NCBI RefSeq assembly: GCF_014207185.1
Contig: NZ_JACHCP010000001.1
Coordinates: 124,001-188,000, forward strand
DNA from: Rhodanobacter sp. A1T4
GTDB taxonomy: Bacteria; Pseudomonadota; Gammaproteobacteria; Xanthomonadales; Rhodanobacteraceae
DNA length: 64,000 nucleotides
Reading direction: 5' to 3'
Shown here piece by piece: positions 35,062 through 36,849 of this stretch. A program made the translations under genes and the position numbers. The first letter of the stretch is position 1. Each line of letters starts with the position of its first letter. Under the pieces are notes generated by a model that saw only the letters and a list, made by a program, of their open reading frames with translations, was not told the origin of the DNA and made no database searches.

Positions 35062-35565
35062 TCAGCCCTGCAGCTTGTCCAGAATGCGGTTCAGCCAGAT
35101 GCGCTCCTGCTCATCGAGCTTGTTCAGCACCTCGCGCTCGCGTTGCCGGGCCATCGGGGCGACTACCTCGTGGATGGCCCAGCCTTCTTCGGTGAGGTCG
35201 AGTACGGAGCGGCGTTTGTCGCTGTGGTGCATGTGCCTGCTGACCCGCCCGGCGCCGACCAATCGCGCCAGTGCGCGACTGACCGCCACTTTGTCCATCG
35301 CCGTGCGCTCGGCGACCTCGCGTGCGGACAAGCCATCGAAGCGCGCGAGCACCGCCATCACCCGCCATTCGGTCACACCGAGATCGTAACGTTGCTGGTA
35401 GTCGTCTGCGATGGCCTGACTGACCGTGTTTGAGAGGATCGAGAGCCTGTAAGGAAGGAAGTTCTCCAGCTCGATCGGTGCGTGCTCGCGGGTTGTCGCG
35501 GTTGCTGCTGGCTCGGCCACTGTCGGTTTGTCGGACGCAAATTTTGGTTTGGTCGAGGCGGACAT
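35062..35565 (-). CDS. MarR family transcriptional regulator
   Basis: A 167-residue winged-helix regulator: LPYRLSILSNTVSQAIADDY, then GVTEWRVMAVLARFDGLSAREVAERTAMDKVAVSRALARL and the wing HHSDKRRSVLDLTEEG. AAGGAA precedes the ATG at 35565. It is divergent from hpd, so a role in controlling homogentisate-pathway genes is likely; this matches HmgR/HpdR-like arrangements but is not proven here. Confidence 0.88.
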   Translation of the reverse strand: MSASTKPKFASDKPTVAEPAATATTREHAPIELENFLPYRLSILSNTVSQAIADDYQQRYDLGVTEWRVMAVLARFDGLSAREVAERTAMDKVAVSRALARLVGAGRVSRHMHHSDKRRSVLDLTEEGWAIHEVVAPMARQREREVLNKLDEQERIWLNRILDKLQG

Positions 35566-35578
35566 GCTGCAATTTTCC

Positions 35579-35607
35579 TTGCAAATGGTTTCATGTGTAA
35601 CTATAAC
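35579..35607 (+). promoter_or_regulatory. Promoter of hpd with an operator-like palindrome in its spacer
   Basis: TTGCAA (35579-35584) and TATAAC (35602-35607) are 17 bases apart. The spacer contains GTTTCATGTGTAAC at 35588-35601, and the symmetry extends outward to a 20-bp palindrome of the form AT-GTT-CA-TG-AAC-AT (35585-35604). A MarR dimer bound there would block RNA polymerase. Confidence 0.6.
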
Positions 35608-35690
35608 GTGTTCTACGCAGATTCTTTGCGGAAGGCCGCGCATGCTTGTGCAGGTTTCCGCCATCATCCAACGGATAGCAGGAGAGCGCC

Positions 35691-35726
35691 ATGAATGGCG
35701 TAATCCACATTAGGAGATTGCCATGA
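35691..35726 (+). CDS. Leader mini-ORF 1 (11 codons) before hpd
   Basis: MNGVIHIRRLP is encoded behind AGGAGAGCGCC, a good ribosome binding site. The stop TGA overlaps the ATG of the second mini-ORF (ATGA). It may be a translated leader peptide or the result of repeat expansion. Confidence 0.4.
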   Translation: MNGVIHIRRLP

Positions 35727-35754
35727 ATGGCGTAATCGATATGAGGAGCTTGCC
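35691..35754. repeat. 32-bp tandem repeat carrying SD and start codon
   Basis: Two 32-bp units (35691-35722 and 35723-35754) share ATGAATGGCGTAATC, then a GAGGAG/TAGGAG Shine-Dalgarno sequence and TTGCC. The true hpd start ATG follows the second unit at the same spacing. Because 32 is not a multiple of three, each unit shifts frame and makes an ATGA overlap. Confidence 0.9.
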
Positions 35755-35758
35755 ATGA
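35723..35758 (+). CDS. Leader mini-ORF 2 (11 codons) before hpd
   Basis: MNGVIDMRSLP follows TAGGAGATTGCC. Its TGA overlaps the hpd ATG. With mini-ORF 1 it forms a chain of two coupled short frames leading into hpd. Confidence 0.4.
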   Translation: MNGVIDMRSLP

Positions 35759-36849
35759 ACGCACAGCCCAATCTCGGCATGCAGGTCACCACTTTCGAAA
35801 ATCCAATGGGTATCGATGGTTTCGAATTCGTGGAATTCGCTGCGCCTGCCGGTCGTGCCGGCGAGTTGCACGCGCTGTTCCGCAAGATGGGTTTCAGTGC
35901 AGCGCTCAAGCATAAGTCGCGACCGATCACGGTGTATCGCCAGAATGGCGTCAACTTTCTGCTCAACGAAGATCCCGATTCCTTCGCCGCGGATTTCGCC
36001 AATGCCCACGGCCCTTGCGCCTGCGGCTTTGCGATCCGTTTCAAGCACCCCGCCACGGACGTGCTGAAGACGGTGCTTGGCAACGGCGGTGAGCAGATCG
36101 AACACAAGGCGGCCAGCAAGGCAGTCGATGCGCCGGTGGTGAAGGGCATAGGCGATTGCATGCTGTATCTGATCGATCGCTACGGCAGCGCAGGCAGCAC
36201 CTACGATGGGGATTACGAGCCTATCGCTGGCGCCGATCAGAACCCCGGTGGCTTCGGTCTCACCTTCATCGATCACCTCACGCATAACCTCTACTTCGGC
36301 AACATGCAGAAGTGGTCGGACTATTACGAGCGGCTGTTCAACTTCCGCGAGATCCGCTACTTCGACATCAAGGGCGTCAAGACGGGGCTGGTGTCCAAGG
36401 CGATGACCGCCCCCGACGGGGTGGTGCGTATTCCGCTCAACGAGTCGAACGATCCGAAGTCGCAAATCAACGAATACCTCGATACCTACAAGGGCGAAGG
36501 CATCCAGCACATCGCCTGCTTCACCGACGACATCTACAGCACAGTCGAGAAAATGCGCGAGCAGGGCGTAGAGTTTCTCGACACGCCGGATACTTATTTC
36601 GACGTGATCGACTTGCGCGTGCCAAACCATGGCGAAGACGTACCGCGTCTTCGCAAAAACAAGATCCTCATCGATGCTGACAAGGAAACCAAGCAGCGCA
36701 AGCTGCTGCAGATCTTCACCCAGAACAACATCGGACCGATCTTTTTCGAGATCATTCAGCGCAAGGGCAACGAGGGTTTTGGTGAGGGCAACTTCCAGGC
36801 GCTGTTCGAGAGTATCGAGCGCGATCAGGAGCGGCGCGGCGTCCTGTAA
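35755..36849 (+). CDS. hpd: 4-Hydroxyphenylpyruvate dioxygenase
   Basis: A 364-residue two-domain vicinal-oxygen-chelate enzyme that makes homogentisate from 4-hydroxyphenylpyruvate. Segments include GFGLTFIDHLTHNLYFG (iron-ligand His), GIQHIACFTDDIYSTV (second His) and FFEIIQRKGNEGFGEGNF near the end, with the third ligand Glu. GAGGAGCTTGCC precedes the ATG. It is the first gene of the tyrosine pathway here and lies behind two leader mini-ORFs. Confidence 0.95.
   Translation: MNAQPNLGMQVTTFENPMGIDGFEFVEFAAPAGRAGELHALFRKMGFSAALKHKSRPITVYRQNGVNFLLNEDPDSFAADFANAHGPCACGFAIRFKHPATDVLKTVLGNGGEQIEHKAASKAVDAPVVKGIGDCMLYLIDRYGSAGSTYDGDYEPIAGADQNPGGFGLTFIDHLTHNLYFGNMQKWSDYYERLFNFREIRYFDIKGVKTGLVSKAMTAPDGVVRIPLNESNDPKSQINEYLDTYKGEGIQHIACFTDDIYSTVEKMREQGVEFLDTPDTYFDVIDLRVPNHGEDVPRLRKNKILIDADKETKQRKLLQIFTQNNIGPIFFEIIQRKGNEGFGEGNFQALFESIERDQERRGVL

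Follow-up and report, generated by a model that had tools for sequence, protein, structure and literature searches.

The window, a 64,000-nucleotide stretch of the genome of Rhodanobacter sp. A1T4 (G000), carries the gene hpd for 4-hydroxyphenylpyruvate dioxygenase. Direct reading of the sequence and its translation confirmed the original prediction that two tandem 32-bp units, each with its own Shine-Dalgarno (SD) sequence and an 11-codon open reading frame, lie at 35691-35758 and run into the hpd ATG. The features of the locus were as follows.

35062-35667, minus strand: divergent MarR-family regulator (Pfam), start codon uncertain; context rather than element
35579-35607, plus strand: predicted hpd promoter, TTGCAA - 17 nt - TATAAC, read by eye
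35680-35684, plus strand: AGGAG, SD of mini-ORF 1; counterpart of hpd's own SD in unit-free relatives
35691-35722, plus strand: unit 1 of the 32-bp repeat, ATGAATGGCGTAATCCACATTAGGAGATTGCC
35691-35726, plus strand: mini-ORF 1, MNGVIHIRRLP by translation, TGA at -4 to mini-ORF 2
35712-35716, plus strand: AGGAG within unit 1, SD of mini-ORF 2 (sequence reading)
35723-35754, plus strand: unit 2 of the 32-bp repeat, ATGAATGGCGTAATCGATATGAGGAGCTTGCC
35723-35758, plus strand: mini-ORF 2, MNGVIDMRSLP by translation, TGA at -4 to hpd
35744-35748, plus strand: AGGAG within unit 2, SD of hpd (sequence reading)
35755-36849, plus strand: hpd, 4-hydroxyphenylpyruvate dioxygenase, 364 aa, start ATGAACGCA (Pfam HPPD, PF14696, E 3.7e-55)

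All three ATGs, those of the two mini-ORFs and that of hpd, were preceded by AGGAG at six bases. Each mini-ORF of 11 codons closed with a -4 (ATGA) overlap, the final one on the hpd ATG, and the staircase that had been ascribed to the 32-bp phase, with its coupling architecture, was borne out. The 32-bp unit followed the pattern ATGAATGGCGT-N10-AGGAG-N3-GCC, and GCCATGA flanked nearly all units. The profile model R2, which was built from sequences that included both units, matched unit 1 at 35680-35722 with 48.1 bits and unit 2 with 37.3 bits.

The predicted hpd transcription start lay at approximately 35614, and the units are expected in the 5' UTR because the predicted promoter sits upstream. 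The motif CCTTGC(A/T)A-17-TATAA(C/A) was found in 11 of the 12 hpd leaders scanned, the twelfth (G164) being mis-anchored in the scan. An imperfect GTTTCATGTGTAAC palindrome was observed between the hpd -35 and -10 elements (35588-35601), and several relatives carried a perfect palindrome, GTTTCATATGAAAC, in this spacer; the spacer palindrome is a candidate operator for the MarR regulator encoded divergently from hpd. The divergent MarR-family gene, homogentisate dioxygenase (hmgA) and fumarylacetoacetase were identified near hpd by Pfam, and none of the nearby proteins that were scanned is an integrase (MarR regulator, tryptophan dioxygenase, hmgA, fumarylacetoacetase and DUF5362).

Occurrence of the unit in the genus and beyond

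A 15-mer of the unit, searched with one mismatch allowed, occurred exactly three times in the whole 5.08-Mb genome, twice at hpd and once at a DUF190 gene, compared to 0 for the control. This third copy is single, lies at G000:C1:615564-615610 before a DUF190 gene directly behind crcB, and is unlinked to hpd. Its ORF, MNGVIDMR, stopped 5 nt before the ATG of the gene. In this copy (L002 1498-1544, minus strand) the inner SD was GAGGTGAT, which we take to be complementary to the 16S 3' end over eight bases, and the same change makes the early TGA. Both hpd unit 1 and this DUF190 copy contained CGCCATGAATGGCG, a perfect inverted repeat.

In the same genome, tandem GCCATAAATGGC-like units with a spacing of 29-30 bp were found at G000:C1:275802-275880 on the minus strand (L191, L205), directly downstream of a DUF4097 gene and before an apparent terminator. 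By eye, 22 of 24 bases in one of them agreed with the unit consensus and its left flank; ATA replaces ATG in this array, and there is no start codon there. The array scored 20.3 bits with R2 (E 0.002 per genome in a set of ten that comprised six carriers) and 16.3 bits with R1 (45 genomes searched, E 0.046 per genome, no better than chance), and it was absent from 29 relatives among the matches listed at that gene. It is probably related to the 32-bp unit, and, given this ATG-less array, the repeat family may extend beyond start codons.

The region upstream of hpd was readable in 42 of the 45 genomes of the genus (G178 and G185 gave no match, and G189 met a contig edge), as was that upstream of DUF190 (G171 and G177 gave no match, and G175 a distant one); these regions were read by eye on 110 printed bases. 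Units were found at hpd in five of 42 genomes, namely G000 (2 units), G165 (1), G172 (1), G179 (2) and G173 (4), and at DUF190 in two of 42, G000 (1) and G189 (4). Copy number varied between species, with 1, 2 or 4 units at hpd and 1 or 4 at DUF190. The remaining loci, 37 of 42 at hpd and 40 of 42 at DUF190, were unit-free, with the ribosome-binding site (RBS) leading straight to the ATG; a typical unit-free hpd site, for example that of G174, reads AGGAGAGCGCC and then ATGAACGCC. All seven arrays at the two genes were in sense orientation and abutted the gene ATG, that of G173 with one extra base.

A unit model search over the 45 genomes with stricter filters placed every match of E <= 1e-5 at hpd or DUF190, in six genomes, and no other confident start-codon locus was found in this search or in a model search over 10 genomes. 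In GTDB contigs the exact pattern occurred in 14 stretches, five of which were SD-type units, all matching carriers of this genus; the other nine were rejected as unrelated palindromic repeats or single matches. The pattern with one mismatch, applied to 233 genomes of the family, gave matches in 18 genomes of 5 genera. On reading, those outside the window's genus were not SD-type units, and several of them presumably represent a histidine-kinase coding motif; two pattern matches within the genus (G160:C33 and G189:C147) were not units either. No match to the unit was found in phages, and plasmids gave only two matches of E = 0.9, which covered 26 bases and lay at the boundary of a gene. A viral contig with the exact pattern was rejected as a carrier, having no SD-type unit.

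Frames, history and specificity of the arrangement

A length of 32 bp was found in 12 of the 15 units, and the remaining three (35, 34 and 33 bp) were all in G173. Eleven of the 15 ended at exactly -4, the exceptions being three of the four G173 units and the DUF190 unit of G000, and the overlap of an upstream frame with a gene never exceeded 4 nt. For random decay in relatives, which the original prediction had named as the mark of a neutral duplication, the outcome was mixed: one of four units was at -4 in the close relative G173, and all units were at -4 in G165, G172, G179 and G189. In the G173 hpd array (L034 1350-1500; lengths 35, 32, 34 and 33) one unit has ATC for ATG and the inner SDs are weakened in two, with the last SD, adjoining hpd, intact. 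This array looks like decay in progress.

In a quick hpd tree, with 9 open forks of 40 and two partial rows, carriers appeared with G000 and G173, in G179 and in the G165 and G172 clade, with non-carriers between; G189, whose hpd start was unread, grouped with G173. Unit 2 of G000 at hpd differed from the G165/G172 unit at 1 of 32 bases, and hpd four-fold sites differed by 49% and 45%; unit 1 differed from the G165 unit by 3 bases. Between G000 and its sister G173 the hpd four-fold sites differed by 41% and the hpd units by 5-8 of 32 bases (2 of the 4 G173 units), and the unit nearest to G000 unit 2 therefore sits in a more distant genome than the sister, as far as these two G173 units go. The DUF190 unit of G000 was 1 base from the G165/G172 hpd unit and 2 from hpd unit 2 of its own genome, and the DUF190 units of G000 and G189 were 5 and 6 of 32 bases apart (two G189 units compared). 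Tandem copies were near-identical: units 3 and 4 of G189 are the same, its units 1 and 2 are one base apart, and the G179 pair is two apart. The comparison of G000 unit 2 with the hpd units of G165, G172 and G173 points to exchange or repeated insertion, though the numbers are small and selection on SD and ATG bases, which by itself lowers unit divergence, contributes. The same patchy distribution could result from an ancient insertion and many later exact deletions between the repeats that flank it.

The slip duplication of an SD-ATG module that had been proposed would fit copy-number change inside the arrays but not the origin of the unit. A slip duplication of the hpd start is rejected as the origin because the sequence after ATGAA matches neither the hpd nor the DUF190 start, and the unit does not come from hpd's own start because it is present at both unlinked genes.

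Tandem GGAG-N5-CATGA (gap 4-34) was found in five of 233 family genomes compared to 0 of 233 for the control, and four of the five were this element; the pattern misses the carriers G173 and G179, which have altered SDs or spacing. A looser SD-ATGA tandem pattern was found in 28 of 377 genomes of the class, G000 included, compared to 8 of 377 for the control. Eight class-wide loci were read: gene starts with in-frame duplications or extensions accounted for three, gene-less simple repeats or short frames for four, and the eighth, L290, had one 11-codon ORF in coupling with a gene. None of the eight showed a staircase that led into a gene. The L290 ORF (G246), MIEPASGDCYE, is ATGA-coupled to an ORF read as 83 codons long. 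A separate SD-ATG doublet, GGAGGTCGCCATGAAT, was observed in another genus of the family (G121, L187) amid a cluster of REP-like TGTAGGAGCGCGCCTGCGCGCGA repeats. At two of the eight loci read, L267 (G288) and L284 (G487), both simple repeats, the short frames of 23-bp GGAG...ATGA tandem repeats close at -4, by eye, but the last ATG read does not begin a gene. A period of 3n+2 with one ATGA suffices for a staircase. Since -4 closure occurs in these unrelated gene-less repeats, the geometry alone is no proof of function.

Interpretation and comparison with known systems

The explanation that we favour, with somewhat better than even confidence, is that a dispersed 32-bp repeat of Rhodanobacter was inserted in sense orientation between GCC and ATGA at the start sites of hpd and DUF190, and would be tolerated there because RBS and mini-ORF hand ribosomes on. 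Upon such an insertion the old RBS of the gene would come to precede mini-ORF 1, and the gene would come to lie behind the inner AGGAG of the unit. Each copy would supply the start codon of an ORF of 11 codons that itself contains the SD of the following start, and each frame closes on the next ATGA because 32 is 3n+2. Ribosomes from the old RBS would translate the mini-ORFs and re-initiate, or would load directly on the inner SD; the gene would thus stay translated, and tandem copy number would change after insertion. We infer translation, coupling, near-neutrality and the effect on hpd from the sequence, and mobility is suggested by near-identical units in diverged backgrounds. Two certain loci are few for a mobile repeat, and a target duplication is indistinguishable from the unit's own ATGA. 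The persistence of the G173 array, with one of four units at -4, also speaks against this reading, as do the stop of the G000 DUF190 unit 5 nt ahead of the ATG and the 3-base distance of G000 unit 1 from the G165 unit. Because the 23-bp repeats also close at -4, the insertion reading is held less confidently, and local history more, than would otherwise be the case.

It is unlikely that the chain of mini-ORFs is a selected enhancer that raises or stabilises translation of hpd (and DUF190) by preventing the RBS from folding and supplying ribosomes. The architecture does have the elements of a bicistronic design (PMC6302717) and is similar to the 11-aa integron ORF-11, which is reported to enhance the translation of cassettes (PMC8876359). 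Predicted SD pairing at hpd was -9.4 in G165 and G172 and -8.6 in G000, stronger than the -7.4 of five of the six unit-free leaders giving a value (the sixth, -6.6), but it was weaker, -6.5, in the carriers G173 and G179. No consistent direction of change in SD strength or RNA structure was found in the carriers, and no uniform gain is predicted because their SD pairing is both stronger and weaker than that of unit-free leaders. The lack of a unit in 37 of 42 genomes at hpd and in 40 of 42 at DUF190, and the loss of the -4 overlap in all but one G173 unit, also argue against an enhancer. Because no uniform SD gain is predicted, the mini-ORF is taken as the feature that would make insertion at a start codon tolerable; it would not be a regulatory peptide. 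An attenuator, which the original prediction had offered as one option, is not supported, as no coding signature was seen in the mini-ORF. That the mini-peptide senses something, for example through slow Pro-stop termination, and so controls hpd as a leader-peptide attenuator or stalling uORF is very improbable. A C-terminal proline slows termination, and nine of the 15 units end in L-P-stop and two more in W-P-stop, but this proline is a consequence of the GCCATGA around the start. Residues 5-10 vary, and no coding constraint was seen, the synonymous share of codon differences being 0.24 in the ORF frame, 0.24 in the second frame and 0.06 in the third (11 unit sequences, omitting G189 unit 4 and the G172 unit, which duplicate others, and G173 units 1 and 3). 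We know of no common signal for hpd and DUF190.

A plain local history, in which one old insertion or rearrangement per gene was followed by neutral slippage and the loci became alike by gene conversion, with no mobile element, is rather unlikely. It would fit the near-identical tandem copies of G189 and G179, the GCCATGA around nearly all units, which would permit exact gain or loss, the closeness of the G000 DUF190 unit to the hpd units, and the -4 staircases of unrelated simple repeats. The distance of the G000 DUF190 unit from the two G189 units set against it would, however, be hard to obtain from one transfer, and a probably related array lies away from any start codon in G000. The latter array, with its ATA for ATG (R2 E 0.002, and R1 only E 0.046), would in turn suit a DNA-level operator or palindromic repeat (GCCATNAATGGC) in which the ORFs are incidental, as would the perfect inverted repeat of unit 1 and the DUF190 copy. 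An operator has no need of seven sense arrays out of seven at a start codon or of 11 of 15 units at -4, and we consider this reading highly unlikely. Single CCATNAATGGC sites numbered 16 in G000 compared to 9 for the control, and the palindrome by itself is therefore not a common repeat. Unlike REP and other palindromic repeats, the unit lacks many dispersed intergenic copies, and tandem GCCNTNAATGGC pairs were found in just 4 of the 45 genus genomes, at hpd, at DUF190 and at one further G000 locus.

Going beyond tolerated insertion, it is possible, though doubtful, that the unit is a minimal, transferable 32-bp translation cassette that targets start codons in the context GCC|ATGA, inserts silently by virtue of the SD, start and coupled ORF that it carries, and moves from gene to gene and among Rhodanobacter lineages. 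If so, start-codon-targeting repeats with a coupled mini-ORF would exist outside mycobacteria and in a form as short as 32 bp, and the survival of repeats in start codons would become testable with one reporter series. Natural tandem bicistronic leaders, together with matched unit-free relatives, would be at hand at hpd, an easily assayed enzyme gene.

Several known arrangements resemble the Rhodanobacter leader. ORF-11 of the class 1 integron site attI1 has 11 aa and its own GGAG SD and is reported to raise translation of the following gene, with only a slight effect of amino-acid changes, and lies at a recombination site (PMC8876359). Unlike the unit, ORF-11 as described there is single-copy, is part of attI1, takes its stop from the inserted cassette, lies 2-62 bp before the first cassette and forms no tandem staircase. 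The bicistronic design consists of RBS1, a short ORF, RBS2 within that ORF and a stop overlapping the gene start (PMC6302717), and the Rhodanobacter leader has the same layout of RBS, short ORF and overlap; the design is engineered with one leader ORF, whereas the Rhodanobacter leader is natural and tandem. Integron ORF-11 and bicistronic designs are examples of how short ORFs of this kind can drive the gene behind them. In natural uORF-gene coupling a short ORF delivers ribosomes, with -4 nt among the commonest spacings according to a review (PMC12548453). Unlike such coupling, one same Rhodanobacter repeat serves two unrelated genes.

Literature searches on Rhodanobacter with hpd and on MIRU-like repeats listed no such repeat. 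The original prediction knew of no described leader of this form for hpd; the form itself is known, though not at hpd, from mycobacterial MIRUs, which appear mobile, insert at start codons and have an internal ORF coupled at -4 nt; the review suggests that this coupling probably limits the impact of insertion (PMC12548453). The Rhodanobacter unit is likewise found at start codons with its internal ORF coupled at -4 (11 of 15 units), in the orientation of the gene in seven of seven arrays, interspersed at unrelated genes of one genome (hpd and DUF190 in G000) and in tandem copy numbers that vary between species. MIRUs, or mycobacterial interspersed repetitive units, reportedly go back to Supply et al. 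in 1997. They are roughly 46-101 bp long and occur at tens of loci per genome in variable tandem copies. In contrast, the Rhodanobacter unit has 32 bp and two to three loci and belongs to another phylum; no mycobacterial record was listed in the exact-pattern search of GTDB contigs, which is not a test of MIRU kinship. Likened by architecture, with no claim of MIRU membership, the Rhodanobacter unit would work like a MIRU, and if the cassette reading is true, it would be an independent, smaller MIRU counterpart in Gammaproteobacteria.
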